Positions 997 through 61,369 of a stretch of 64,000 nucleotides of DNA are shown piece by piece. This DNA is from a bacterium (GTDB taxonomy: Bacteria; Vulcanimicrobiota; Vulcanimicrobiia; Vulcanimicrobiales; Vulcanimicrobiaceae): positions 45,001 to 109,000 of the forward strand of contig JAJYFL010000003.1 of assembly GCA_021790935.1 (NCBI GenBank), written 5' to 3'. Positions within the stretch are counted from its first letter, which is position 1; every line of letters begins with the position of its first letter. Under the pieces are notes generated by a model that saw only the letters and a program-made list of their open reading frames with translations, was not told the DNA's origin and ran no database searches. Position numbers and translations under genes: made by a program.

Positions 997-2598
997 TCAG
1001 GGGGTCAATTTTCGCGAGATCGATTTCGCCTGCAGGAAGAGCAGCAGGTAGTCGCGGCCGCCGGCCTTGCTGTCGGTGCCCGACATATTGAAACCGCCGA
1101 ACGGGTGACCCCCAACCAGCGCTCCGGTCGACTTGCGATTGAAGTACAGGTTCCCGACGAAAAAATCGTCGCGAGCCCGCTCGATTTTACGTTCGTCTCG
1201 CGTATAGACCGAGCCCGTCAGCCCAAACTCCGTATCGTTCGCGATCTCGATCGCGTGGTCGTAGTCGCGCGCTTTGATCACTGCGAGCACGGGCCCGAAT
1301 ATCTCTTCCTGCGCGATGACGGCATGGGGCGGGACGTCGGCGATGACGGTCGGCTCGAGGAAATATCCGCTCTCGCCGACGCGCTTACCGCCGTGGAGCA
1401 GGCGACCTTCGCGCGAGCCGATCTCGACATAACGAAGGTGGTCCTTCAGCGCACGCTCGTTGATCACGGGGCCCATGTGGAACGCGCCGTTCGTAGGGTC
1501 GCCCACGGTAATCTTCGCGACGCGCGCCCGGAGCTTCTCGACGAATTCGTCGTAGATGCTCGCCTCAACGATCGCTCGGGAGCAGGCCGAACACTTTTGA
1601 CCCTGAAACCCGAACGCCGAAACCGCGACGCCTTCGACCGCCGCGTCGATATCGGCATCGGCCGCGACCACGATCGCATCCTTGCCGCCCATCTCTGCGA
1701 CCACGCGCTTGATCCATCTCTGACCCGCGACGGGCTTCGCCGCCAGTTCGTTGATATGAAGGCCGACGCTCTTGCTCCCGGTGAACGAGATAAAACGCAC
1801 CAGCGGGTGGGAGACCATCGCGTCGCCGATCTCGGCCGCGCTGCCTGGAACGAAATTCACGACGCCGTTTGGAAGGCCGACCTCGTGCAGCAGATCGACG
1901 AACCAGGCGGCTATCACCGGCGCATCGCTCGACGGCTTGAGAATCACCGTATTGCCGGCCGCGATCGCGGCCGACGTCATCCCCGCCATGATCGCAAACG
2001 GAAAATTCCACGGCGGTATCGATAGACCGACGCCCAGGGGAATGTAGCGCAGCTCGTTTACCTCGCCGGCGACCGGGGTAACCGGCTGCGCTCCGGCGTA
2101 GCGCAGCGCCTCACGCGCATAAAACTCGAGAAAGTCGATCGCTTCAGCCGTATCGGCGTCGGCTTCGACCCAGGTCTTTCCCACTTCGCGCACCATGAGC
2201 GCGTTGAACCGGAAGCGTCGCCGGCGCACTAACTCGGCAGCAGAGAGGAGGTAGCCCGCCCGTTCCGCTACGGGGACGCTCTTCCACGCCGCAAAACGCT
2301 CGTGCGCCCTTTCGATAGCGCGCACCGCCTGCGGAAGCGAGGCGGAGGCAACGTGCCCCACGATTCGGTCCGGGGCCGACGGATCGCTAGACTGGATCTT
2401 TTTCGCGCAATCGACGCGCTCGCCATCGATAATCAGCGGATAATGCTTCCCGAATGCGTCGTCCACCTCGGCAAGGGCCGCCTGCATAGCCGCAATATCG
2501 GACGGGTCGGTATACGATCGGACCGGATCGTTCGCGAAGGGCGCTAGGCGCTCGAGGGAGATCGTCAAAATACCACTCCAACTCTTGAACGACTCCAT
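997..2598 (-). CDS. rocA: L-glutamate gamma-semialdehyde (1-pyrroline-5-carboxylate) dehydrogenase
   Basis: Oxidises glutamate semialdehyde/P5C to glutamate with NAD(P)+, the second step of proline and arginine catabolism. The 533-residue product is close to the usual ~515 of stand-alone RocA/PruA enzymes. The cofactor-binding region PPWNFPFAIMAG, the general-base region EMGGKD and the catalytic cysteine in FGFQGQKCSACSRA are all visible. The C-terminal GGHPFGGFNMSGTDSKAGG is typical of P5C dehydrogenases. The frame stays open upstream, but the ATG at 2598 gives the family N-terminus and has a GGAG upstream. The gene is divergent from lhgO. No proline dehydrogenase gene lies alongside. Confidence 0.88.
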   Translation of the reverse strand: MESFKSWSGILTISLERLAPFANDPVRSYTDPSDIAAMQAALAEVDDAFGKHYPLIIDGERVDCAKKIQSSDPSAPDRIVGHVASASLPQAVRAIERAHERFAAWKSVPVAERAGYLLSAAELVRRRRFRFNALMVREVGKTWVEADADTAEAIDFLEFYAREALRYAGAQPVTPVAGEVNELRYIPLGVGLSIPPWNFPFAIMAGMTSAAIAAGNTVILKPSSDAPVIAAWFVDLLHEVGLPNGVVNFVPGSAAEIGDAMVSHPLVRFISFTGSKSVGLHINELAAKPVAGQRWIKRVVAEMGGKDAIVVAADADIDAAVEGVAVSAFGFQGQKCSACSRAIVEASIYDEFVEKLRARVAKITVGDPTNGAFHMGPVINERALKDHLRYVEIGSREGRLLHGGKRVGESGYFLEPTVIADVPPHAVIAQEEIFGPVLAVIKARDYDHAIEIANDTEFGLTGSVYTRDERKIERARDDFFVGNLYFNRKSTGALVGGHPFGGFNMSGTDSKAGGRDYLLLFLQAKSISRKLTP

Positions 2599-2735
2599 CC
2601 GCGTGCTCCGCACTGCGGCCTGGAGCTTCGTGCGAACGTATGATACTGCACGCTCGTACCATACGCCTGGCATCCCCGGCGCTGCGCCTCCCGCGATAGC
2701 GGGCCCAGGCATTTCGCGGGAGAAAGACTGCCTCG
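2599..2735. promoter_or_regulatory. Divergent intergenic region between rocA and lhgO
   Basis: This 137-bp region must hold both promoters. A CGTATG/CATACG inverted repeat at about 2637-2665 encloses -10-like hexamers for each direction (TATGAT on plus, TATCAT on minus), but no convincing -35 was found. A small CCCGC-GATA-GCGGG hairpin lies at 2690-2703. GGGAGAAAG before 2736 is a good Shine-Dalgarno sequence for lhgO. Confidence 0.35.
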
Positions 2736-3944
2736 ATGTTTCATGACGTCGCGATCGTGGGCGGGGGAATCGTCGGGTTGGCGGTCGGCCGCGAGATCCT
2801 GTCCCGCCATCCGCACCTTCGCCTACTCGTCCTCGAAAAAGAGCCCACCATCGCCGCACACCAGACCGGGCACAACAGCGGCGTCATTCACTCGGGCCTC
2901 TACTACGCGCCGGGATCGATGAAAGCCAGGCTCTGCACCGAGGGACGCCGCGCGTTGTGGCGCTACTGTGACGAGAAGCAGATCGAGTACCGTCAGGTCG
3001 GTAAGTTGATCGTGGCAACCGAGGAACGCGAGCGCGCAGCCCTCGATGCCCTGATGCAGCGGGGAGTTGCCAACGGAATCGACGGGCTCGTCCTGCTGGA
3101 CGGCCACGGCATCGAACGCCGCGAACCGCACTGCCGGGGCATCGGCGCCATCTTCTCGCCGGTGACGGGCATCGTAGATTACGGTGCGGTCGCCCGCAGC
3201 TATGGCGACGATATTCGCGAGATGGGCGGCTCGATCCAAACCGGGCGTCGGGTGCTCGGCATCGACCGCAGGGCCGGCACGACGCGCATAAGGACGGACG
3301 CGGCGGACTACGAAGCGCGCAACGTGATCGCGTGTGCCGGCTTGATGGCCGACCGCGTCGCGAAGATGACGGGCGGCGGCGGCGATCCCAAGATCGTTCC
3401 CTTCCGTGGCGACTACCTGATCCTCAAGCCCGAAAAGCGCTATCTCGTGAGGGGCAACATCTATCCCGTCCCCGACCCCGCCTTTCCGTTCCTGGGCGTG
3501 CACTTCACGCCGAGGATGAACGGCGACGTATGGCTTGGTCCCAATGCGGTCCTCGCGTTCGCGCGAGAAGGGTATACCCTCCGCACGATCGATCTGCGCG
3601 ATCTCCTCGAATCGCTGACGTACGCCGGCTTCGTCAAGCTGGCCGGCCGGCACATGCGCGCGGGGATGGGAGAACTCTATCGCGATATCGTGCCGAGCGC
3701 CTACGTTGCGGCGCTGCAGCGCTACATCCCGGAGCTGACCGTTTCGGATACGTTGCCCGGACCTTCGGGCGTCCGCGCTCAGGCGATGCGCTCCGACGGA
3801 ACGATGCTCGACGACTTCGCCTTCGAGGAGTCCGACGGCGTGCTGCACGTGCGCAACGCGCCGTCACCCGCCGCCACCTCGTCGCTAGCCATCGCGGCCT
3901 ACGTCGCCGACGACGCCGATCGCCGTTTCGAACTGCGCCGCTAG
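2736..3944 (+). CDS. lhgO: L-2-hydroxyglutarate oxidase/dehydrogenase (FAD-dependent)
   Basis: FAD enzyme of the DAO superfamily that oxidises L-2-hydroxyglutarate to 2-oxoglutarate. The 402-residue length fits LhgO (YgaF). The N-terminus has the dinucleotide-binding GGGIVGLA motif. It is followed by QTGHNSGVIHSGLYYAPGS, a signature of this family, and a C-terminal GPSGVRAQ. A GGGAGAAAG ribosome-binding site precedes the ATG. It may feed glutamate/2-oxoglutarate metabolism together with the divergent P5C dehydrogenase, but that link is inferred. Its TAG stop is the first triplet after C3941 of the inverted-repeat element. Confidence 0.85.
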   Translation: MFHDVAIVGGGIVGLAVGREILSRHPHLRLLVLEKEPTIAAHQTGHNSGVIHSGLYYAPGSMKARLCTEGRRALWRYCDEKQIEYRQVGKLIVATEERERAALDALMQRGVANGIDGLVLLDGHGIERREPHCRGIGAIFSPVTGIVDYGAVARSYGDDIREMGGSIQTGRRVLGIDRRAGTTRIRTDAADYEARNVIACAGLMADRVAKMTGGGGDPKIVPFRGDYLILKPEKRYLVRGNIYPVPDPAFPFLGVHFTPRMNGDVWLGPNAVLAFAREGYTLRTIDLRDLLESLTYAGFVKLAGRHMRAGMGELYRDIVPSAYVAALQRYIPELTVSDTLPGPSGVRAQAMRSDGTMLDDFAFEESDGVLHVRNAPSPAATSSLAIAAYVADDADRRFELRR

Positions 3945-4109
3945 GAGCCTGTCGGAGTTGAGCCGTTTTCGGATTTGGTGCCGAATTTTGTTCGGAGACG
4001 AGGCGCGAAGAAGGAGCGAAGCCGTAGCTTCGTGACTGATGAGCAACGAAGTATCCGGGCAAAAGGCGGCCCAAAGACGGAAACGCGCTCAACTCCGACA
4101 GGCTCCTAG
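3941..4109. repeat. 169-bp inverted-repeat element with 23-bp perfect ends
   Basis: The ends (3941-3963 and 4087-4109) are perfect inverted copies beginning CTAGGAGCCTGTCGGAGTTG; similarity continues imperfectly for about 15 bp further inward. The interior has a small CGAAGC-CGTA-GCTTCG hairpin and no coding sequence. The left end supplies the lhgO stop (TAG) and the right end supplies the trpA stop (TGA). Diverged single ends occur at 26591-26614, 31587-31609 and 44938-44960. It could be a MITE-like element, a bidirectional terminator, or both. No target-site duplication was recognised. Confidence 0.7.
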
Positions 4110-4904
4110 CAGCAGCGGCTCTACGAATGAGCGGACGCGCGCAGCCGCGGCTTCGCCCGCCGATCCACCGTACGCATCGATCAAGGCACTGCCGACGATG
4201 ATGCCGTCGGCAAGCGGGGCCACGGCACGCACGTGCTCCACCTTGCTGACGCCGAACCCGACGGCGAGGGGTTTGTCCGTCAACGCGCGCATCGTCGCGA
4301 TCTGCGATCCCAACGGCGAGAAGTCGGGCTCCGTTCCCGCGCCGGTGACTCCTAACCGCGACACGACGTAGACGAACCCCGTGGCCTGCGCAGCAATGCG
4401 GGAAGCGCGGTCGCGCGTCGTGGACGGTGCCACGAGCAACGGCATCTCCACGGCGTTCGCAATCAGCGCGCCACGCAATTCGGCGCCTTCCTCAAGAGCT
4501 ACGTCGGGGACGATCACGCCCGCCACGCCTGCGGCAGCGGCGGCCTCGGCTAGGCGCCGGATTCCAAAGCGATAGACCGGATTGTAGTACGTGAAGAGCA
4601 CGATCGGCGGCCAACCGCGCTCCCGGCCTTGCCCAACCAACCGCAGCACGCCGGCCATGCGCGTACCCGCACGTAAGGCTCGCACGCCCGCTGCCGCGAT
4701 GGTCGGCCCATCGGCCAGCGGGTCGCCGTACGGGACGCCGACTTCGATCGCATCGACGCCGGCGTTCGCGAGCGTATCGAAGATCGCGGCGGTTGTCGCC
4801 AGGTCCGGATCGCCAGCCATCACGTACGGAATGAACGCGGCGCGACCGCGCTCCCGGGCACGCCGAAAGACCGATTCAAGCATAGCTGCAGCCCTGGGCG
4901 CCAT
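4089..4904 (-). CDS. trpA: Tryptophan synthase alpha chain
   Basis: Cleaves indole-3-glycerol phosphate to indole and glyceraldehyde 3-phosphate in the TrpAB complex. At 271 residues it has family length. The catalytic glutamate region (DAIEVGVPYGDPLADGP) and the phosphate-binding GFGVSKVEHV and GSALID motifs are present. Last gene of the trp cluster, starting 6 bp after trpB. A second ATG at 4883 is possible; neither start has a strong Shine-Dalgarno. The final residues, about LGACRS, and the TGA stop are encoded by the right end of the repeat element, so the native C-terminus has been replaced or extended. Confidence 0.95.
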   Translation of the reverse strand: MAPRAAAMLESVFRRARERGRAAFIPYVMAGDPDLATTAAIFDTLANAGVDAIEVGVPYGDPLADGPTIAAAGVRALRAGTRMAGVLRLVGQGRERGWPPIVLFTYYNPVYRFGIRRLAEAAAAAGVAGVIVPDVALEEGAELRGALIANAVEMPLLVAPSTTRDRASRIAAQATGFVYVVSRLGVTGAGTEPDFSPLGSQIATMRALTDKPLAVGFGVSKVEHVRAVAPLADGIIVGSALIDAYGGSAGEAAAARVRSFVEPLLLGACRS

Positions 4905-4910
4905 GCGCCG

Positions 4911-6104
4911 TCATTCCGCGCTCCGCGACGGGTACGCCGAGCGCACCTGATCGATGTCCTTGTCGCCGCGCCCGCTGAGATTCACGACGATCAAGTCGTC
5001 GCTATCGCGTTCGAGCGCCAGCTCGCGTGCGAACGCAATCGCATGCGCGCTTTCTAGCGCCGGGACGATACCTTCTAGCGCAGCTAGCGCGAAGAACGCT
5101 TCGAGTGCCTGCGCGTCGGTCACGGCAACGTACGTCGCACGCCCCGTCTGCTTCAAGTAGGCGTGCTCGGGCCCCACGCCGGGGTAATCGAGTCCGGCAC
5201 TAATCGAGTGCGTCTCGCTCACCTGGCCATCGGCGTCTTGCAAGAGATACGACCGCGATCCGTGCAGCACCCCAACGCTGCCGGCGCCCAGAGACGCGGC
5301 CGTGTGCGCACCCTCGAGACCTTCTCCCGCAGCCTCCACGCCCCACAAGCGCACGCCCGGATCGTCGACGAACCCGGCGAAAATCCCCATCGCGTTGCTC
5401 CCGCCGCCCACGCACGCGATCACGTCGCTCGGCAACCGGCCATAGCGCGCGAGGCATTGGCTTCGCGCTTCGACGCCGATAACTTTTTGAAACTCGCGAA
5501 CCATATATGGGTAGGGATGCGCGCCCACCACGCTGCCGATGACGTAGAACGTATCCTCGACGTGAGCCGCCCACTGCCGAAACGCCTCGTTGGTCGCATC
5601 TTTGAGCGTCTGCGTTCCACCCGTAACGGGGTGGACGCGCGCTCCCAGCAGATTCATGATATAGACGTTCAGCGCTTGGCGTTCGACGTCGGACGCACCC
5701 ATAAAGACGTCCACCGTCATGCCGAGTTTCGCGCCTACGGTCGCCGTCGCGACCCCGTGCTGCCCCGCGCCGGTCTCGGCGATGATTCGGCGTTTGCCCA
5801 TCCGTTGCGCCAGCAGGCCCTGGCCGACGGTATTGTTGATCTTGTGCGCGCCCGTGTGATTGAGATCTTCGCGCTTGAGCAGTAGCGGTGCGGCTGAAAT
5901 GCCGGCGAGATACCGTTGCGCGGCATAGAGCGGCGACGGCCGGCCCACGAAGTCGCGCAGAATCGCCTCGTACTCCTCCCAGAACGCCGGATCGGCAAAG
6001 GCTTCGTTCATCGCGAGCTCCAGCTCTTCGAGGGCTCCCACGAGAACCTCCGGAACGAACCGGCCGCCGAACTCTCCGAAGTATCCGCGTGAATCAGGTC
6101 GCAT
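4911..6104 (-). CDS. trpB: Tryptophan synthase beta chain
   Basis: PLP enzyme that condenses indole with serine to give tryptophan. At 397 residues it matches the TrpB1 type. The PLP lysine lies in HTGAHKINN, the glycine loop is GGGSNAMG, and the N-terminus ([13 protein letters not shown]) is typical. The ATG overlaps the 3' end of trpF by 11 bp, which suggests translational coupling. It is followed 6 bp later by trpA. Confidence 0.97.
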
Positions 6105-11713: not shown

Positions 11714-11830
11714 TTACCCTTGTACCTGTTTATGCTTGGGATTGCTCTCGCAGATCACCCGCACTCTGCCTTCACGGCGAATGATCTTACATTTTTCGCA
11801 AATCCGCTTTACCGATGGTCGTACTTTCAT
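11714..11830 (-). CDS. rpmJ: 50S ribosomal protein L36
   Basis: A 38-residue protein, easily missed by length filters. It starts [19 protein letters not shown] and ends HKQVQG. The three cysteines and the histidine (C-x2-C, C, H) form the zinc site of the C+ form. It lies between map and rpsM, the usual place. infA, which often precedes it, is absent here. Confidence 0.96.
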
Positions 11831-11850
11831 GATTCCGATCCTGTCTGTTG

Positions 11851-12660
11851 TTAGGCCGAAGGGGCGCTCTCCTCGGCGGGTCGATAGAGGCGCGTATCCG
11901 GATGCTCCCCGATATCGCGCAGCGTCAAGATTTTCGGGCCGTCTGGCGTGACGGCGATGGTATGCTCGAAGTGCGCTGCGAGTTTACCATCTGCCGTGAC
12001 GACTGTCCAGCCATCCTTCAGGGTTTCGACCGCATGGCCGCCCTGGGTGATCATCGGCTCGACGGCCAGCACCAACCCTGGCCGCAACTCGCTTCCGCTC
12101 CCCGCGCGCCCGAAGTTGGGGACCTGCGGCTCCTCGTGCATACGCGTGCCAACGCCGTGGCCGACCAGCTCCCGGACCACGCCGTAGCCGTGTCCCTCGG
12201 CGTGCGCCTGTACGGCCCAGCCGATATCGCCCAGGCGTTTGCCGGGCTGCATCTGCGCTATGCCGGCCATCAAGCACTCCTGGGTGACGCGCATCAAGCG
12301 CACCGCCTCTTTGGAGACCGAACCGATAGGCACGGTTACGGCGCTGTCGCTGACATAGCCCTCAAAGGTCGTGCCGATGTCGATCGAGAGTATATCCCCC
12401 TCCCGCAGTTCGTAGTCGCCGGGGATACCGTGAACGACTTGCTCGTTGACCGACGTGCATATCGAGCCGGGGTATCCGTGATAACCCACAAACGTCGGCT
12501 CGCCGCCGAGCGCCCGGATACCGGTCTCCGCCAGCCGGTCGAGCTGCCTCGTCGTCACACCGGGCCGGGCCGCTCGCATCAAATCGCCAAGCACCTGCGC
12601 CGTGATCTTTCCGCCGCGCCGCATCGTCTCGATCTCGCGCGAGGATTTCAACGCAATCAT
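11851..12660 (-). CDS. map: Methionine aminopeptidase type I
   Basis: Removes the initiator methionine from nascent proteins. The 269-residue product shows the metal ligands in [29 protein letters not shown] and a C-terminal glutamate region. [22 protein letters not shown] is typical of type Ia. Its ATG overlaps the adk stop by 4 bp, so translation of the two is probably coupled. Confidence 0.96.
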
Positions 12661-13313
12661 GCCGTGCTCGGCTCGGCGAGGTGCAACGCGTCTCGAATCG
12701 CTTTGGAGACGGAATCGATCGGTTGGCGGGCGTCGATCTTCGCGAGCCGTCCCAAGGACGCGTAATAATCGACCAACGGGCGCGTCTGCGCTTCGTACAC
12801 CGCCAGGCGGTGCCGAACCGTATCAGCCCGATCGTCCTCCCGCTGCACCAGCGGACCACCATCGTCATCGTCAATGCCCGCGACGCGCGGCGGCGCGAAT
12901 TTTTCGTGATAGACGCGGCCGGTACGCGGATTCGTCCACCGCCCTATCAAGCGCTCCTCGAGCAGCGACCGGTCGATCTCCAGCACCAAAGCCGCCGCGT
13001 CGCCGCGGCCGCGCGCGGAAAGCAGCGCGTCGAGCGCCTCCGCCTGCGCGATGGTTCGCGGAAAACCGTCGAAAAGCACGCGACGGTCGCCCGAAAGTTC
13101 GCGTTCGACCATGCGCACGATCAGCTCGTCCGGCACCAGGTCGCCGCGCTGCATGTACGCTTCCGCCGATTTGCCCAGATCCGTACCGCCCGCCCGGTGT
13201 TCGCGTAACAGGTCCCCCGTCGCGATCTGCCGGTAACCGTAGCGATTACACAGAACGCGCGCCTGCGTTCCCTTGCCGGCCCCAGGCGGTCCGAGGAGGA
13301 TCGCGTCGCTCAT
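12657..13313 (-). CDS. adk: Adenylate kinase
   Basis: Interconverts ATP + AMP and 2 ADP. At 218 residues it has a P-loop (GPPGAGKGTQA), an AMP-binding region (ATGDLLRE) and FDGFPRT. The LID is the long form (TNPRTGRVYHEKFAPP) without the zinc cysteines. It overlaps both the secY stop and the map start by 4 bp each. Confidence 0.96.
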   Translation of the reverse strand: MSDAILLGPPGAGKGTQARVLCNRYGYRQIATGDLLREHRAGGTDLGKSAEAYMQRGDLVPDELIVRMVERELSGDRRVLFDGFPRTIAQAEALDALLSARGRGDAAALVLEIDRSLLEERLIGRWTNPRTGRVYHEKFAPPRVAGIDDDDGGPLVQREDDRADTVRHRLAVYEAQTRPLVDYYASLGRLAKIDARQPIDSVSKAIRDALHLAEPSTA

Positions 13314-18597: not shown

Positions 18598-18894
18598 TTA
18601 CTTCGCCTTTTCCACGATCTCGACCAGCCGCCAGCGCTTGTCCCTCGACATCGGGCGGCACTCCATGATGCGCACGGTGTCTCCGGTTTTGGCTTCGTTT
18701 CGCTCGTCGTGCGCCTTGAATTTCACCGATTTTCGGACGATCTTACCGTACACCGGATGCGGTACGCGCGTCTCCGAGACCACGACGATGGTCTTGTCCA
18801 TCCTGTCGGAGACGACACGCCCCTGCTTGACGCGACGCGGATGCCGGTCCGGTGAGCGCGGCGCTGCCGACGGCATGTTGTTAAGCTGCTCCAT
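18598..18894 (-). CDS. rpsQ: 30S ribosomal protein S17
   Basis: Small-subunit RNA-binding protein, 98 residues. [19 protein letters not shown] and [27 protein letters not shown] are typical. I chose the ATG at 18894, inside the rpmC 3' end (14-bp overlap), because GAGGAAACCC precedes it at good spacing. An ATG at 18876 just after the rpmC stop is the alternative. The first ~20 residues are an extension before the core. Confidence 0.93.
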
Positions 18895-19102
18895 GGGTTT
18901 CCTCGGCAATCCGCTTTTCAGAGATGACGGTTTGAATCTGTGCGTAGGCGCGGCGAGCGGCGCGAACCTTGCTGAAATCTGAGAGATGCCCGGTCCGCAA
19001 CGCAAAACGCAGGTTGAACAACTCTTCCTTCGTCTCGCGCGCCTTCTGCTGAAGCTCGACGATCGTCAGACCGCGCAGCTCTTTGAAATCCGTGTTCTTC
19101 AC
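18881..19102 (-). CDS. rpmC: 50S ribosomal protein L29
   Basis: Exit-tunnel rim protein and docking site for trigger factor and SRP, 73 residues. [35 protein letters not shown] is typical. It overlaps rplP by 4 bp and rpsQ by 14 bp. Confidence 0.95.
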
Positions 19103-19518
19103 GCTTGCGCCTCCTCACGCGAGACGATTTTCGTGCCGATCGGCAACTTGGATGCGGCCAGGCGCAGCGCTTCCTTCGCGACGTCCGGCGCGACGCCGGA
19201 GAGCTCGAAGAGGACGCGTCCCGGTCGCACGACCGCCACCCAGAACTCCGGGTTGCCCTTGCCGGCACCCATGCGTACTTCGGCCGGTTTTTTGGTTACC
19301 GACTTGTCCGGAAAGATCTTGATCCACACCTTGCCGCCGCGCTTGATGTGACGCGTCATTGCGATACGGGCGGCCTCGATCTGGCGGTTGCTCATCCAGC
19401 ACGGTTCGAGAGCCTGTAAACCGAATTCGCCAAACGTGAGCGTGCTGCCGCGCAGCGCGCGGCCGCTCATCCGGCCGCGATGTACTTTGCGCCATTTTAC
19501 GCGTTTTGGAGTCAACAT
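19099..19518 (-). CDS. rplP: 50S ribosomal protein L16
   Basis: Peptidyl-transferase-region protein of 139 residues. [54 protein letters not shown] and [24 protein letters not shown] are diagnostic. Its ATG shares one base with the rpsC stop (TGATG-type junction). Confidence 0.97.
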
Positions 19519-20417
19519 CAGTACGCACCCTCTCCCTCGACGGGCGCCATCGCCGGCGCGGCCTGCTCCACGGACGGCTCCGGCAGCGCGACCTCAACAG
19601 ACCCAACCGGTCCTTCCGGCGCCTCACCCGGGAACGGTTCCGCTTCCAAGGCCGGCGCGGCCGCGGGCGCAGCGAGGGGAACGGTCCCGCCGGCGCTAGG
19701 CCGGCTGCGCCCTCCACGCGATCCCCGCTCGCGGCGGTCGCGAAACGTTGCACGCTCCGAACGGTCGCGTCCCTGCTCTACGCGCGACTGATCGGGCAGA
19801 ACTTCCCCGCGGTAGATCCATACTTTTACGCCGATCCGTCCGAAGGTCGTGAACGCCTCGACGTTAGCGTAATCGATATCCGCGCGAAGCGTATGCAGCG
19901 GGACTTTCCCGTCGTGATTGCGCTCCGTTCGCGCGATCTCGGCGCCACCCAAGCGACCGGAAACCTGCACTTTGATACCGCGCGCGCCGGCCTTCATGCT
20001 GCGCATGATAGCCTGCTTCATCGCGCGCCGGAACGCGATCCGCTTCTCGAGCTGATCGACGATATTCTGAGCGACCAGGCGGGCGTCGAGCTCGATGTGC
20101 TTGATCTCGACGACGTTCACCTGGACGGTCTTACCGGTGAGCTGCTCGAGACTCTTGCGAATGTCTTCAATCCCGACGCCGCGCTTGCCGATGATGATAC
20201 CGGGCTTGCCCGTATTGACGATCACCCGGGCCTGATTCGAGCGGCGCTCGATCTCGATCCGGCTGATTGCCGCCGGACGCATCCAACGCGTAAAGTAGTT
20301 TCGAATGCGCACGTCTTCGTGCAGCCACTCTTTATAGTGCTTATCCTCGAACCAGCGGCTATCCCACGTCCGCGTGATGCCCAGGCGCAGCCCGACCGGA
20401 TGAATCTTCTGTCCCAC
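19518..20417 (-). CDS. rpsC: 30S ribosomal protein S3 with long C-terminal extension
   Basis: mRNA-entry protein. The KH domain ([28 protein letters not shown]) and the conserved [23 protein letters not shown] and [14 protein letters not shown] fall in the first ~215 residues. The product is 299 residues, so about 85 extra residues follow. The extension begins Arg-rich and becomes Pro/Ala/Glu-rich and acidic, probably disordered. Confidence 0.96.
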
Positions 20418-54125: not shown

Positions 54126-56756
54126 CTAGGCGATCAGGCCGGAGTGGCGCGCGAAGACGAGCGCTTCGTCGCGCCCGCTGCAGCCGAGTTTGGCGATCGC
54201 GTTCCGGATGTGCGTCTGGACGGTATAGACGCTACGGCCGTTTTCGACGGCGATCTCCTTCGGGCTCTTGCCCGCGGCGAGCCCCTGGAGCATCGCGAGC
54301 TCGGCACGCGTGAGGACCGATGCCTCAGGTTGCGAGGCCGCCAGATAGCGGGCGTACACGAGATCCAGGAGCCGCGCATACCCGCCGTAGCCAGCCGACC
54401 GCAGCGCCTCTAATGCCTCGGTGAGCTCCGCGCCGGCCGCCGGCGTCTTGAGCGCCCGTACGAGGCAGAGAACGGCCCGCCGAAGCATCCGCGCGGCCGG
54501 CGGCGCCTCCGGCCCCTCGCGCGCCAAGGTTCGGCCGGCGGCACCGCCGCGACCGGCAAGCGCTTCGGCGAGCCCGCCAAGCGAGCGGGCGATCTCGACC
54601 GTCAGCACGGCGCGGCTGGACGCGGGCACAAAAGAGGCGATTTGCTTGAGCGCGCGCTGGGCGCGATCGAGCCCCTCGTTACGTTTGCCGAGCGTCACCG
54701 CGTAGAGGGCGACCAGGGCCCCGTTCAAGATGCGGTCCTCTTCGTAGGTGACGCGCTCGGCCACCGGGGCGAGCAGACGGTAGGCCTCGTCGAAGCGGCC
54801 TTCGGCGGCGGCCAACCAGGAGTTGCCTTCCACGATGATCGCGCCGCGTACCCGGTCGCTGGTTGTCGCTTCGGCAAGCTGCCCGAGGATCGATCGCATC
54901 CGGTCGATACTGCCGCGGCACTCCTCGACATCCAGCATCTGGATCAGCGCCGTCTGGAGCGCCAGCCGATCGCCTGCCTTCGTCGCAGCTCCCACCGCCT
55001 GTTGCGCATACCACACTACTCTCGCGGGGCTTGCCTCTTCGTGGACCATCGTGACGATCGCGAGCACGTTATACGCACGAGCCGCCAGACTTGGCAATCC
55101 GGATGCGACTGCCAGATCCGCTGCTACCGTAAGGTGCTCTCGGGCCCCGGTGACGTCAGCTAGGTACATGCGCGCGACCCCGAGCCGCTGATAGACCTTG
55201 GCTCGCGTCGCGTCATCGTCGACGAGCTCGATACATGATTCCGCGCGGCGTATCTGCTCGGCTGCTCGTTCCTTGGGACCGAGGTACGCGTCGTCACAGG
55301 CCAGCACCGAGTACATCTCGGCACGCAGGCCGACCGGCATCTGCTCGTCATCGGCCAGGGGCGCAAGGAGCGCGCTCCCAGAGCGGCCCTGGTTGAACCG
55401 CAGCATCGCGAGCGGAATGGCCAGGCGTGCGGAGAGTTCGCGATCGCTCGTCTTCGCGAGCGCCCGCTCGAAGAGCGACTCCGCGCGGTCGAAGCGCCCG
55501 AGCGCCGCCTCGTTCATAGCCCGCATTCCGAGCACGACGGGGCTGCCCGCGCGGACGCTCTCGCCTAGGACGCCGACGGCGGCCTGCACTGCGTCTCCGT
55601 GCGCGCGATCGGCCAGATCGAAGCCCTCGCGTTCGAGCAGCCGCAGAATATCGCTCGCGGCGCCCGCCTTTGCGTAGGCGGTCAGCGCCGAAGCCGAACG
55701 CCCCGCCGCCTCGAGAGCGCCGCCGACGCGCGCGAGCATTCCGGCGACCGCGTCGTCGCCCTGCATCTCGAGCTGGTGATTCAGGAAATCGCGAAAGAGA
55801 TCGTGACAGTAGTAGACGCCCGGACGCTCGTGGTAGATGAACGCGACGCGAGCCCGCAACGCTTCGAGGACCGCCTTGCCGTTGGCGATGCCGCCGTGTT
55901 TGAGCGTCTCCGCATCGATGACCGGAAGGTAGGCGGCAAAGTGTAGGACGTCGCGCTCCTCGGCGGTCAGTGCCTCGTAGACTTGCTCCGCAAGGTAGCG
56001 GTAGATCATCTCGCGCGTCATCGACGAGATGTTGCGCAGATCGACCGAACGCGTGGAGGTGCGCAGCGCGAAACTCAACGCCGTCGGCCATCCCTCGGTC
56101 ATCTTCAGAATCTCGGCGAGCTCCTCGTCACGGACGCCGACGCGCGCCCAACGAGCGGTCTCGCGAGCCTCCTCGACGTTGAAGCGAAGGTCGCTTTCGT
56201 CGATCGGCAAGTCCATCTCACCGTAGGCCAGCCACGAGCCGACGGGGAGATCGAGCGACGAGCGCGAGGCCAGGATCCAGCGCGCGCGCCCTTTGGTACG
56301 CTCGATCAACGAAACCAAGAACTTCGTGACTTGCGGGTCGCGCTCGCCGACGTGCAGGTCGTCGACCGCGATCGTACCGGAGTACGTCTTGATGTGCGCG
56401 TGCATCCACGCCGCCAGATCGACGCCCTGCCGATTGGAAGCGAGCGTCTTTTCGTAGGCGCCGGAGAGCGTCTTGCGCGCGCCCGGCGCTATCTCGAGGA
56501 ACGCATCCGCAAGGCCGCGCGCGAAGCCCAAGAGCGCGCCGTTCTCGGGCCCGACGTCGTAGCGCACGTGCGGCGTATCGAGCGTATCGAGGTACTGCCG
56601 CAATGCGACTGACTTGCCGTAACCCGCAGGCGCGACGATCAATACGACTCGCTGCGTTGCAGCAGCCGCCATGCGCTCCAGGATGCGTGGCCGGCGGATC
56701 GGGGTGAAGACGCCGCCCGTCTCTACCCGTCCATCGGCCGCTACCGGCCGAATCAC
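54126..56756 (-). CDS. MalT-like ATP-dependent LuxR-family regulator
   Basis: 876 residues in the MalT/LAL layout. The N-terminal STAND NTPase has Walker A in APAGYGKSVALRQ and a Walker B-like TIAVDDLH. A long helical, TPR-like region (~340-800) rich in Ala/Leu follows. The C-terminal LuxR HTH is LTRAELAMLQGLAAGKSPKEIAVENGRSVYTVQTHIRNAIAKLG. Its inducer is unknown. It lies upstream of the peptide/HD-GYP unit and may control it. Confidence 0.88.
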   Translation of the reverse strand: MIRPVAADGRVETGGVFTPIRRPRILERMAAAATQRVVLIVAPAGYGKSVALRQYLDTLDTPHVRYDVGPENGALLGFARGLADAFLEIAPGARKTLSGAYEKTLASNRQGVDLAAWMHAHIKTYSGTIAVDDLHVGERDPQVTKFLVSLIERTKGRARWILASRSSLDLPVGSWLAYGEMDLPIDESDLRFNVEEARETARWARVGVRDEELAEILKMTEGWPTALSFALRTSTRSVDLRNISSMTREMIYRYLAEQVYEALTAEERDVLHFAAYLPVIDAETLKHGGIANGKAVLEALRARVAFIYHERPGVYYCHDLFRDFLNHQLEMQGDDAVAGMLARVGGALEAAGRSASALTAYAKAGAASDILRLLEREGFDLADRAHGDAVQAAVGVLGESVRAGSPVVLGMRAMNEAALGRFDRAESLFERALAKTSDRELSARLAIPLAMLRFNQGRSGSALLAPLADDEQMPVGLRAEMYSVLACDDAYLGPKERAAEQIRRAESCIELVDDDATRAKVYQRLGVARMYLADVTGAREHLTVAADLAVASGLPSLAARAYNVLAIVTMVHEEASPARVVWYAQQAVGAATKAGDRLALQTALIQMLDVEECRGSIDRMRSILGQLAEATTSDRVRGAIIVEGNSWLAAAEGRFDEAYRLLAPVAERVTYEEDRILNGALVALYAVTLGKRNEGLDRAQRALKQIASFVPASSRAVLTVEIARSLGGLAEALAGRGGAAGRTLAREGPEAPPAARMLRRAVLCLVRALKTPAAGAELTEALEALRSAGYGGYARLLDLVYARYLAASQPEASVLTRAELAMLQGLAAGKSPKEIAVENGRSVYTVQTHIRNAIAKLGCSGRDEALVFARHSGLIA

Positions 56757-56937: not shown

Positions 56938-57201
56938 ATGAAGACCATCAATGTTTCCGTCCCCGAGCCTCTTGAAGAGTTCGTTCAGCAGAAGGTCGCC
57001 TCGGGTGGGTACTCGTCGGCAAGCGAAGTCGTCCGTGAGGGCCTTCGGCTCTTGCAACAGTACGATGACGAACGGCTTCACACGCTGCGCGCAGCGATCC
57101 GCAAAGGCATGGAATCCGGCGAAGGGCGGCTCCTCGATGAAATCTCTACCGACGAGATCGCCCAACGCGGCAACGAACGTCTGCGCCGAGCGCAGGCGTG
57201 A
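56938..57201 (+). CDS. parD: ParD-like ribbon-helix-helix antitoxin
   Basis: 87 residues. MKTINVSVPEPLEEFVQQKV and GGYSSASEVVREGLRLLQQ form the CopG/ParD ribbon-helix-helix, and the C-terminal half is the toxin-binding tail. It overlaps the toxin gene by 4 bp. Expected to repress its own promoter. Confidence 0.88.
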   Translation: MKTINVSVPEPLEEFVQQKVASGGYSSASEVVREGLRLLQQYDDERLHTLRAAIRKGMESGEGRLLDEISTDEIAQRGNERLRRAQA

Positions 57202-57488
57202 AGGTCAGGCTTCTACCGGAAGCCGAGGCCGATCTCGACGACATCTGGTATTACATCGCTCTCGATGACCCCGGAGCCGCGTCGCGTACCATCGATACCA
57301 TCCTGGCACGACTAAGGGTTCTCGTCAGGTTCCCCGGCGCTGGTCGCGAGCGAGAAGACCTGTACCCCGGACTAAAATCGTGGCCCATAAACAACTATGT
57401 CGTATTCTACACGGTTAACGACGATATTCGCGTGGCTCGCATCTTGCACGGCCATCGCGACGTGCAGCGCGCTCTTTCGCAAGATTGA
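57198..57488 (+). CDS. parE: ParE-like toxin
   Basis: 96 residues, GTG start overlapping the parD stop. LLPEAEADLDDIWYYIALDDPGAA and YVVFYTVNDDIRVARILHGHRD are the family hallmarks (RelE/ParE superfamily). ParE toxins characterised elsewhere inhibit gyrase. First genes of the accessory island. Confidence 0.88.
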   Translation: MKVRLLPEAEADLDDIWYYIALDDPGAASRTIDTILARLRVLVRFPGAGREREDLYPGLKSWPINNYVVFYTVNDDIRVARILHGHRDVQRALSQD

Positions 57489-57500
57489 TCTAGAGCCGAC

Positions 57501-57684
57501 ATGAAGTTCGAATTGGAAGAGACGCTGCGAGGTGAGCCGGATGAGGTGCTACTCGACGATTTACGCCGCTGCGCTCAAGTGCTTCGAAGAGACACAACTA
57601 CCATGGGGCGACACCACTGACGCAAACCTTGAGACGAAGTGCGCAAGCTGCAATCTCGGGAAAGGCAATGCATTTGATGCCTAA
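57501..57684 (+). pseudogene. HNH endonuclease remnant
   Basis: An ATG at 57501 opens 39 codons (MKFELEETLRGEP..., LDDLRRCAQVLRRDTTTM) resembling the N-terminal repeat of HNH/homing-type endonucleases. In another frame, up to 57684, TDANLETKCASCNLGKGNAFDA matches the C-terminal end of an HNH domain. The middle with the HNH core is gone and the frames differ, so this looks like an internally deleted gene. It ends where the transposase region starts. Confidence 0.5.
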
Positions 57685-57701
57685 TGCTATCGGGAGATTG
57701 C

Positions 57702-59060
57702 GTGAACGCCAACGTCCTTAACCTGCCTCAGTATCGCGTGCTAAAGGTAGATGAAAGCGAGCACGATTATCATGTGTACACCGAGATCGCCGTAGAGCGC
57801 ACACCCTGCCCGCAATGCCGTTCCGGCAAAGTTCACCGTTGGGGCGCTCGGGAGATACTATTCAAGGACTTGCCGATGCACGGCAAGCGCGTAGGCATGT
57901 ACGTGCGCGCCAGGCGTCTACGCTGTGATGATTGCGGCAGGACCTTTCAAGAGCGACTGCCCGCATTGTCTGAGAAACGCCTAATGACAGAGCGGCTAGC
58001 GAGTTGGGTTGGAAAGCAGAGCCTCAAACGACCTTTCACTTCCATTGCCGATGAGGTGGGCGTCGACGAAGGTACGATCCGCAACATCTTTCGGGATTAC
58101 GTCAATGAGTTAGAGGCTCAGTTTGAGGTTGAGACACCGACTTGGCTGGGCATCGACGAAATACATATTCTGAAGCCGCGTTGCGTGGTTGCTAACATCG
58201 AGAGCGAGACAATCGTTAATATTCTGGCTGATCGCAACAAGAAGACCGTAGCGGGCTACCTGCACGTATTGCCACAGCGCGAGCGCGTGAAGTACGTCGC
58301 GATGGACATGTGGACGCCTTATCGCGACGCGGTTCGCGCCGTTCTACCGCAAGCAACGGTCGTGGTGGACAAATTCCACGTCGTTCGGATGGCAAACGTC
58401 GCGATGGAGCAGGTTCGCAAGGGCCTTAGAGCGAGTCTTCCGCCGAAACAGCGTCGAGGTCTTATGCATGACCGCTTCATCCTACTGAAGCGTTCGCACG
58501 ACCTCACCGTACAAGAGCAGTTCCTGCTCGATAATTGGAGCTCGTTGCATCCGACGCTTGGCGAAGCCTACCGCCTGAAAGAAGGCTTCTTCGGCATCTA
58601 CGATGCGCAAAACAAGGCGGCAGCTGAAATGCACTATCGCGCTTGGGAGAGCAGCATCCCGCAAGTTGTGCGTAGCGCGTTTGCACCGATCCTAACGGCC
58701 TGGAACAACTGGCACCCCGAGATACTCTCTTACTTCGACCACCCGATTACGAACGCGTACACCGAGTCGCTAAACAACCTGATCCGCGTGATGAACCGCC
58801 TGGGGCGAGGCTACAGCTTTGAGGCGTTGCGCGCTAAGATTCTCTTCACCGAAGGACCACAGAAACGGGAAGCTGCTCGCCCGAAGTTCGAGCGCCGCAA
58901 TCATCGCGAAGAGTCCTTCCTCGCCATGCGCACGATCTCGTCGCTCTCGTATGGCGATCCAACATGGGATGACGAGACGGAGCGTAACCTCGGAGTCGAT
59001 ATCCCAACACTTGCGGCAATGATCGAAGATGACCGCTTCTCAGCAGGACCCAACCGCTAA
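57702..59060 (+). CDS. ISL3-family transposase
   Basis: 452 residues from the GTG at 57702 (GGGAGATTGC upstream); the frame is open from 57684. The N-terminal zinc finger has CPQC and CDDC pairs. A helix-turn-helix follows (SIADEVGVDEGTIRNIF). The DDE core shows LGIDEIHILKP, VVDKFHVVRMAN and AYTESLNNLIRVMNRLGRGYSFEALRAKIL. The gene seems intact. Terminal inverted repeats were not found, so the limits of the element are unknown. Confidence 0.88.
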   Translation: MNANVLNLPQYRVLKVDESEHDYHVYTEIAVERTPCPQCRSGKVHRWGAREILFKDLPMHGKRVGMYVRARRLRCDDCGRTFQERLPALSEKRLMTERLASWVGKQSLKRPFTSIADEVGVDEGTIRNIFRDYVNELEAQFEVETPTWLGIDEIHILKPRCVVANIESETIVNILADRNKKTVAGYLHVLPQRERVKYVAMDMWTPYRDAVRAVLPQATVVVDKFHVVRMANVAMEQVRKGLRASLPPKQRRGLMHDRFILLKRSHDLTVQEQFLLDNWSSLHPTLGEAYRLKEGFFGIYDAQNKAAAEMHYRAWESSIPQVVRSAFAPILTAWNNWHPEILSYFDHPITNAYTESLNNLIRVMNRLGRGYSFEALRAKILFTEGPQKREAARPKFERRNHREESFLAMRTISSLSYGDPTWDDETERNLGVDIPTLAAMIEDDRFSAGPNR

Positions 59061-59301: not shown

Positions 59302-61134
59302 TCAAACCGAGTGGCACGAATCGCCGTCGAAGACCACCAATGCATCGCCTGCGATTACGCCGGCGGATTCGATGGGGTTGGTGAGCCAGGCGATCGCGAG
59401 CGTGACGTCTTCGTGCGTACAGGCTTGTTTGGAGCCGGCGGCATGCAGCACTGCGTCGACGAGAAGCATTGCGGCATCGACTGTGAGATGCGGGGCGTTG
59501 GCTGCGCCGCCTTGTTGTGCGGCGGTGCGTTGTGCATTCCAGCCCTCGCGTTGGAGGATGGCGGCGATCGTGGTGACGCGCTTGGCTTGGCCGTGCCGGC
59601 GTTGCCAGAGCAGATCGCCGAGGACATCGCTTGCGTATCCCGGCACGAGAATGACGGCACGCAATTCCACCGGTGTTGCGGCGATGCCGAGCAACGCAAT
59701 GAGATCCGATGTGGTGAGCGCCGTGACCTTGTGCGTTTGCAATTCGCTGAGCAACTCGGATTCGTCGGAGAATGCTGGTCCGACGATCACGCCGTAATCC
59801 GCTTGGAGCTCTGCGATCTCTTTTGCCACCTCGGCGCAATCGGGTTGCGTGACGATCGTTTTCGCACTCTTGCACTCGATGGCGACGCGATAGCCGAGCG
59901 GCCCGAGGATCGCATCGGCGATGCCGTCGGCCTGATCGTGCCCACCGAGATGGGTGGTGAGAAATCCCAGTTGCGCGAACGCATCGCAGACGGCGATTTC
60001 GAAGGCGGTCGGATCGTCGCCGGTTGCCGTTCTGGTGAGGCGCTCGCAGAGTGCTTGCGTTCGTGCATCGTCGGGAGTTGCAGCTTGCGGCGCGAGAACC
60101 GGCCAATCGTCGGCGGGTTCGTTGATGCGAAAATTGCGTTGCTCGTCTTGGACGATCGGTGATTTGCGACCGCGACCGATGGCACGCGCGATATATTCGA
60201 TGAGCGCGCTATAGACGTACTTACGTAACGTCGTCTTGGGGATTAGGCCACGTTCGATCGCTTCGGCGCAGAGCGTTTGCGCATCGCGCGCAACGCCGTC
60301 GCTGAGAATGTCGATCGCGGCGTTAATAATACGCCCGCGCGGTTCCGGCGTGTGCCCCGGTGAAACGGCCATCGCCGGTAGCGGCATCGTCTGCGCGCCG
60401 ATCTCGACAATTTGACGCGCGAAGCGATCGCCGTGGGATTTCAGGCGATCGGGAAACTCCGCCGCGGTGCACGCCACGGCCCCGATTGTCGCGAGTTCAT
60501 CCCAGGCGATCGGCGTACACATCGGCAGCGATGGTGCGCCGCGCAGGCTATAGGGAAGCGCGCTATAGCGGCCGCGGGCGTTGCTCGATACGTGGATGTG
60601 CACGCGATTGGGATCGTGCGTGTTGGGCTGGTTGCTCAGCAGCGCCGGATGCGCGGCGACGACGGGATTGACGACACCATGCAACCATGCGCGCACGGCG
60701 ACGGCGTGCGGCGCATCGCTCAGCGGGATCCAGAGTGCGATGCCGCCGAGGCCGTCGGCGAGTGGAATCGCCGCGATACTCTCGCGCGCGAGGGCCGCGC
60801 GCAGCAGCGTTGCGGCTTCGCGGACGAGGTGCCAGGGCGTTTGCCGCGCTTCGATGAGAATCCGCCCGAAGCGGAGGCGATCTTCATCGGTGACGAGGCC
60901 CGCCCATGAGTGAAATTCAACGGCGTAGTAGCGGTGCACGCACCACAGCAGCCTCGACGCACTCAGGGGAATCTCGGTGACGGCGAAATGCGGTTGGCCG
61001 TGAAAGCCGGGCGGAAAATTCGCGTAGACGATGGGTTCGTCGGCGAAGTGCGCGGCGATCAGGGGTGCCGCGTGGTCATAGTGTGCGAGGAGATGCGGGA
61101 CGAGAGCCGCATCGTCAAATTTGCGCGCTTCCAT
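59302..61134 (-). CDS. LigD-polymerase-like (motif-degenerate) / winged-helix-like / PD-(D/E)XK nuclease fusion
   Basis: 610 residues. Residues ~12-215 align by eye with the LigD polymerase domain (AEP primase-polymerase fold): NFPPGFHGQPHF, LLWCVHRYYAVEFHSW, and above all ALPYSLRGAPSLPMCTPIAWDEL. The metal-binding DxD is replaced by a GRILIEA segment (~90-96). The GLH motif reads GGIALWI, and the third Asp region reads RVHIHV. Residues ~265-330 look like a winged helix. Residues ~375-485 form an Mrr-type nuclease: Glu379, Asp403/Asp407 and ECK (Glu420, Lys422). The ATG at 61134 fits the domain start. Flanked by IS sequence on both sides. A defence role is inferred. Confidence 0.7.
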   Translation of the reverse strand: MEARKFDDAALVPHLLAHYDHAAPLIAAHFADEPIVYANFPPGFHGQPHFAVTEIPLSASRLLWCVHRYYAVEFHSWAGLVTDEDRLRFGRILIEARQTPWHLVREAATLLRAALARESIAAIPLADGLGGIALWIPLSDAPHAVAVRAWLHGVVNPVVAAHPALLSNQPNTHDPNRVHIHVSSNARGRYSALPYSLRGAPSLPMCTPIAWDELATIGAVACTAAEFPDRLKSHGDRFARQIVEIGAQTMPLPAMAVSPGHTPEPRGRIINAAIDILSDGVARDAQTLCAEAIERGLIPKTTLRKYVYSALIEYIARAIGRGRKSPIVQDEQRNFRINEPADDWPVLAPQAATPDDARTQALCERLTRTATGDDPTAFEIAVCDAFAQLGFLTTHLGGHDQADGIADAILGPLGYRVAIECKSAKTIVTQPDCAEVAKEIAELQADYGVIVGPAFSDESELLSELQTHKVTALTTSDLIALLGIAATPVELRAVILVPGYASDVLGDLLWQRRHGQAKRVTTIAAILQREGWNAQRTAAQQGGAANAPHLTVDAAMLLVDAVLHAAGSKQACTHEDVTLAIAWLTNPIESAGVIAGDALVVFDGDSCHSV

Positions 61135-61369
61135 GGCGCGGTTAGTCGACGGCGAATCGCCCCAGCCCTGCCTTCGCAAACCGCAGGCTCGGCCGCGTAC
61201 CGGTTGAGCCGATGCTCGATTCGATGCAAGGGAACCGGGCTGCCACGACGCCGGCTCCTGGAGTGAGGAAAACGCGGTTGGGAAATGCGCTTCAGAGCGC
61301 GATATTTTCATCGCGACGAGAAACCGGCATAGGCAGCGTCTGCGGGAGAACGAGCGTGGAGCCCCTCAC

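Follow-up and report, generated by a model that had tools for sequence, protein, structure and literature searches.

Within the window, by which we mean the whole 64,000-nucleotide stretch of DNA that was analysed, the gene under study is an intact ORF on the minus strand whose product joins a LigD-polymerase-like half to an Mrr-type nuclease. Both parts score above the curated Pfam cut-offs (LigD_Prim-Pol PF21686, E = 4.4e-23, residues 59-237; Mrr_cat PF04471, E = 1.4e-6, residues 374-481), which bears out the fusion proposed in the preliminary description. An alternative ATG upstream, at 61311, lengthens the ORF; the start Met at 61134 is supported by the 98%-identical homologue in genome G070, which opens only 2 codons earlier. 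The features of the gene and its surroundings are as follows.

59302-61134, minus strand: whole gene, 610 amino acids plus stop (intact ORF, Pfam; start backed by the G070 homologue)
60385-61134, minus strand: NT, residues 1-250, LigD-type Prim-Pol predicted to be catalytically dead (Pfam; family profile vs. 2iru)
60850-60858, minus strand: L-I-E (residues 93-95) replacing the DxD metal motif I (family alignment)
60736-60738, minus strand: A133 replacing the motif II His (family alignment)
60592-60594, minus strand: H181 replacing the motif III Asp (family alignment)
60097-60345, minus strand: MID, residues 264-346, conserved basic domain (conservation in 28 representatives, charge)
59677-60069, minus strand: NUC, residues 356-486, Mrr/FokI-like PD-(D/E)XK nuclease (Mrr_cat, FokI match)
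59998-60000, minus strand: E379, invariant nuclease acid (fused-family alignment)
59926-59928, minus strand: D403, invariant Asp of the nuclease metal site (fused-family alignment)
59869-59877, minus strand: E420-C421-K422, the ExK motif (fused-family alignment)
59326-59667, minus strand: CT, residues 490-603, conserved C-terminal domain (conservation)
59306-61202, no strand assigned: stretch 98.3% identical to the copy in G070, flanks unrelated (DNA comparison)
56938-57488: ParD/ParE-like genes
57684-59060: transposase of 458 amino acids
61406-61618: DDE transposase fragment

The gene thus sits between IS sequences near ParDE, as had been described, with an ISL3-family transposase domain among the scanned neighbours; its direct neighbours are mobile-element remnants, the ParDE pair and ordinary genes. 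Somewhat further away (54126-56756) is a LuxR-type regulator of 876 amino acids with GerE as its C-terminal domain, and several other LuxR-family proteins lie near loci of the gene’s relatives (e.g., L070). No M4 metalloprotease match was found in the window genome (G000), and no cognate methyltransferase adjoins the window nuclease, the only strong C5-methyltransferase match of this genome being on another contig. The window copy has no visible partner nearby and would act alone.

Translated searches recovered approximately 70 family loci in 40 of the 117 genomes of one class, with up to 7 loci per genome (seven each in G108 and G110). No match at E ≤ 1e-14 was present in the remaining 32 genomes of the phylum that were examined, and no family member was found on viral contigs (protein and family-alignment queries), in phages or on plasmids, the last yielding only two ordinary Prim-Pols, whose DxD and His are intact. 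An exact-peptide scan of contigs, which detects close relatives only, named two relatives, both metagenome bins. Within the family the NT and nuclease parts occur fused, as adjacent genes in either order, or each alone. The order is NT then nuclease at L050, L051, L062 and L064, and nuclease then NT at L060, L063 and, with a gap between the genes, L061; between coupled genes there are from a few to a few tens of bases, or a slight overlap. This pattern of fusion, re-ordering and coupling suggests that the two parts work together. Stand-alone dead Prim-Pol genes occupy a syntenic place in genus g35 (L068, 7886-8788; L069, 4915-5739), with no nuclease module detected there. At L072 (8773-9190) the nuclease module has, where the dead polymerase domain would be, an unrelated N-terminal extension of ~140 amino acids that may serve recognition instead.

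Relatives of the window gene have restriction and CRISPR genes among their neighbours. By class-wide counts, with expected values that are approximate (based on total genome size) and post hoc, calculated once the neighbours were known, as for all neighbour statistics given here, 3 of 32 C5-cytosine methyltransferase genes lie within 3 kb of a family member (P = 3e-5) and 2 of 10 strong Cas1 genes within 10 kb (P = 1e-3), both more than expected. At L048 a C5-methyltransferase gene follows immediately downstream in the same orientation, while at L049 a C5-methyltransferase and a Vsr gene are divergent from the family gene, which occupies the place of the restriction enzyme. These are the only two loci with a cognate methyltransferase beside the nuclease (C5 type, counted genome-wide). 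At L057 an NgoMIV-type type II restriction enzyme already stands beside the methyltransferase, so this locus says only ‘defence island’. Among CRISPR genes, Cas9 and Cas1 lie beside L055, Cas3c with Csd1 beside L052 and Cas4-Cas1 beside L073, and the second-closest relative adjoins a Cas9 gene. A control sample of 106 genes drawn from these genomes contained neither a methyltransferase or restriction enzyme nor Cas1 or Cas9; its best defence-library matches, with one gene apiece, were to a homing endonuclease (6e-21) and to PDC-M45B (6e-18). Accessory genome regions are generally rich in defence genes, and the methyltransferase, CRISPR and protease partners are each found at few of the 70 loci. 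The suggestion of a defence effector is supported by the restriction, CRISPR and protease genes near relatives, but not by the mobile-element remnants, ParDE and ordinary genes beside the window copy.

A third association above chance, an unexpected one, is with M4 metalloproteases (P = 2e-17). There are 8 well-matched M4 (protealysin-like) genes in the 117 class genomes, 6 of which lie within 1 kb of a family member; these six are within 530 bp of the family match, where they either abut the family gene or overlap it slightly, and are arranged as follows.

L044, 5289-6329: M4 gene, then the fused gene
L061, 7038-8039: M4 gene after nuclease and NT, with a gap between these two
L063, 7530-8534: M4 gene after nuclease and NT
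L071, 9307-10332: M4 gene after NT, nuclease facing
L073, 10475-11489: M4 gene convergent with a frameshifted fused gene
L114, 6994-8025: M4 gene, then the nuclease

The association survives the counting of L061 and L063, which are syntenic, as one event. All six linked proteins carry HExxH and an N-terminal (I/V)(I/V)P(P/M) stretch, which we take to be typical of protealysin-like enzymes. Comparison of neighbourhoods revealed no gene common to most family loci, and M4 genes are absent from the 1 kb around 64 of the 70 loci. The ‘single gene’ of the preliminary description consequently applies to the window locus, but not to relatives that are split into two genes or that lie beside an M4 metalloprotease or cytosine methyltransferase. 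An unconnected observation concerns L046, where a cluster of paralogues from a large lineage family, Virginiamycin-B-lyase-like in appearance (2512-5740, 11800-12813 and 18614-19690), resembles proteins at L035, L039 and L066.

The M4 genes invite the reading that protease and nuclease form a two-part toxin that kills the cell or a competitor, with NT as the immunity or inhibitor module. Protealysin normally shares an operon with its inhibitor emfourin (PMC9505478), NT also exists as a separate gene, and three quarters of the M4 genes of the class, six of eight, adjoin a family member. The absence of M4 from the 1 kb around most family loci is at odds with this reading, as is the M4-linked locus L114, which has no NT gene in the stretch read, and we regard it as unlikely.

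With a 22-member family profile, the polymerase homology of the NT domain widens to about residues 10-240; among solved structures this profile was significant only to LigD-type polymerases (E = 2e-28 to 7e-22; 2iru, 2.1e-28). Judged from sequence, NT is a member of the LigD-type Prim-Pol (AEP) evolutionary family. Catalytic residues were compared between 41 family Prim-Pol domains and 15 genuine LigD-type ones, of which 13 come from the class itself and 2 from plasmids, using the motif definitions hhhDhD, sxH and hD/E (PMC8656161). The first Asp of motif I is kept in 15/15 controls and 0/41 family domains. Neither the second Asp of motif I nor the motif II His is kept in any of the 41, being replaced by Glu in 24 and by Ala in 35, respectively, while the motif III Asp is kept in 4 and replaced by His in 20. 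The window protein has L93, E95, A133 and H181 at these places, and the loss of all three catalytic motifs that had been noted from the single sequence is thus confirmed. The 5'-phosphate pocket, an Asn and two Lys named for Prim-PolC (PMC5663958), is lost as well: the Asn is kept in 4/41 family domains, the first Lys in 0/41 and the second in 1/41. Lysine content is 1.7% in the family NT vs. 4.6% in genuine LigD-type domains, and net charge per 100 residues is -1.5 vs. +0.7. By its motifs and pocket, the family NT would not be classed as an active LigD-type Prim-Pol. The proposal that NT recognises DNA ends or 5'-phosphates is weakened by the loss of the pocket, the lysines and the positive charge, and is not supported; the architecture itself is, since NT falls within the AEP/LigD fold, the catalytic motifs are not retained in another register and fused homologues exist (22 fused family members were aligned).

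Both halves of the protein are maintained by selection. In the comparison of the window copy with the G067 copy, dN/dS is 0.21 for NT, indicating purifying selection, and 0.03-0.14 for the other domains. NT keeps LigD scaffold residues such as W77, N185, Y195, P208 and W211, and has conserved polar residues that are peculiar to the family and differ from the LigD consensus (H18, R91, D140, R148, H152 and S191). NT might have been remodelled rather than inactivated, with E95, D127 and H181 (codons at 60850-60852, 60754-60756 and 60592-60594, minus strand) forming a new metal or ligand site for a different chemistry. These three residues occur together at the catalytic-motif places in 14/41 family domains, and singly in 24 (E), 27 (D) and 20 (H); the full set is missing from over half of the members, making such a site very unlikely.

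Descent from the LigD/Prim-Pol family and the presence of genuine stand-alone Prim-Pols in these genomes would also fit an accessory role in NHEJ repair, in which the dead polymerase domain would serve as a scaffold at breaks whose ends the nuclease trims. Ku is present in 92 of the 117 class genomes, but the window genome (98.8% complete) and its two congeners gave no Ku match, and neither did G067 and G070, the closest carriers. The lack of a Ku match in the host and its two closest carriers is evidence against end joining, and the loss of the 5'-phosphate pocket and the patchy, multi-copy and horizontally moved distribution also argue against this role; it was rejected because Ku was not found in G000, G067 and G070, and its probability is lower again than that of a remodelled site. 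A stand-alone Prim-Pol with intact motifs remains in the window genome (L002, 1027-2139) despite the lack of a Ku match.

The window copy and that of G070, a genome from another genus, are 98.3% identical in DNA over 1,897 bp, which comprise the gene and 68 bp upstream only; the DNA comparison thus shows a recent horizontal transfer. In all other relatives the identity is lower and confined to the gene. Copies within a genome are mostly ~65% identical in DNA, so there has been no recent amplification, and several family copies are broken by stops or frameshifts. With mobile-element debris around the window copy, the sharp edges of the shared stretch point only to recent transfer, and are not taken as a sign of a self-moving element. 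Multiple and often broken copies, variable neighbours and the cross-genus copy indicate a turnover typical of defence genes. The least probable explanation, a self-copying mobile-element gene (transposase-like or a homing nuclease), would account for the multi-copy, patchy distribution and for a near-identical copy in another genus that is confined to the gene, but was rejected on the old divergence of the paralogues, the lower identity of the other relatives over the gene alone, and the position of the edges of the shared stretch in the mobile-element debris of the window.

The nuclease motif looks intact, as the preliminary description had it: E379, D403 and E420 are invariant and K422 near-invariant across the 22 fused members, 18 of which match Mrr_cat. 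The sole solved-structure match of the nuclease profile is a weak one to the FokI cleavage domain (E = 0.012), in an alignment that covers GFxxKHxGGxxxPDG and extends into the catalytic strand. Residues 356-486 are thus assigned by homology to the PD-(D/E)XK nucleases of Mrr/FokI-like type, and the conserved metal motif suggests that NUC cleaves DNA. MID, conserved across 28 representatives, gave no credible match in domain or solved-structure sequence searches, which did not confirm the winged-helix-like region of the preliminary description; nor was there a match to HARE-HTH (PF05066) in 41 genomes (0/41; control genomes positive). CT alone likewise had no credible match among solved structures, MID and CT show no mutual similarity, and no known modified-base-binding domain was found in the family domain search. 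A structure model built from three sequences reached a mean pLDDT of 30.6. As the only domain with a net positive charge, MID is the better candidate for DNA contact, and we infer that it, rather than NT, is the part that holds DNA.

We propose, with moderate confidence, that the window gene encodes a restriction-type DNA endonuclease that defends against phages or other foreign DNA, with NT as a recognition or gating module. In the proposed mechanism, the Mrr/FokI-like domain would cut DNA that is held by MID, and NT, having neither catalysis nor a grip on 5'-phosphates, would let cutting proceed only on foreign DNA or during infection. Most members are probably conditional, being triggered by infection or requiring DNA modification. 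Conditional activity is probable given that most loci have no nearby C5-methyltransferase and that several genomes contain many different copies; constitutive nucleases would probably not be tolerated where one genome carries seven different copies, most of them without a partner. Some relatives could be gated otherwise, either through the adjoining protealysin-like M4 protease or through Vsr and a cognate cytosine methyltransferase. By analogy, activation of a proenzyme by the protease is the nearest working model for the M4-linked subset, while classical restriction-modification fits better for L048 and L049. A bolder version of this endonuclease reading, which we put forward as speculation and consider doubtful, is that these proteins form a new class of immune effector. 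Their pseudo-polymerase, with its origin in end-joining repair, would sense nucleotides, an inhibitor or intermediates of phage replication and would silence the nuclease until infection, the gate being replaced or reinforced in some lineages by an intracellular thermolysin-like protease that cleaves and thereby activates the nuclease.

If the proposal is correct, a repair polymerase has become a pseudoenzyme in control of a restriction nuclease, and this in a lineage for which no system of the kind is listed, and the natural split, fused and protease-paired versions make the question of gating directly testable. Through the M4 link, the poorly understood protealysin-like proteases would gain a partner and perhaps a role, and the recent nuclease-protease principle would reach another protease family. 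No precedent for the architecture or the M4 link was found in the libraries and literature searched, and PADLOC lists no family member.

LigD polymerase domains and stand-alone Prim-Pols (2IRU, 5OP0) are homologous to NT over residues ~10-240 and have scaffold residues in common with it; the family domain differs in lacking the catalytic motifs and the 5'-phosphate pocket, in being lysine-poor and in its coupling to a nuclease. CRISPR-associated Prim-Pols (PMC8211822) also bring an AEP-type domain near cas1, as at some family loci, but these are active polymerases, whereas the family domain appears to be dead and is of LigD type. DndH (PMC10853773) embodies the same design idea, the reuse of inactive enzyme folds for recognition, with different domains; an inactive Prim-Pol is not described in the part of that paper considered here. 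Mrr- and FokI-type PD-(D/E)XK restriction nucleases resemble the family in the Mrr_cat domain (18/22) and, weakly, in the PD..ExK pattern of FokI, while the family has other recognition parts, an extra conserved C-terminal domain and usually no C5-methyltransferase nearby. Hachiman, AVAST and caspase-nuclease loci pair nuclease and protease genes (PMC12799240), as do 6 of the 70 family loci; in Hachiman and AVAST a trypsin-like protease activates its partner nuclease, which is a proenzyme (PMC12799240). The proteases of these loci are trypsin-like or caspases, whereas that of the family is M4 thermolysin/protealysin-like, and PMC12799240 makes no mention of a metalloprotease, LigD, FokI or primase. 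In kind, the proposed system belongs with what is already known, namely PD-(D/E)XK defence nucleases with recognition modules and nuclease-protease pairs.
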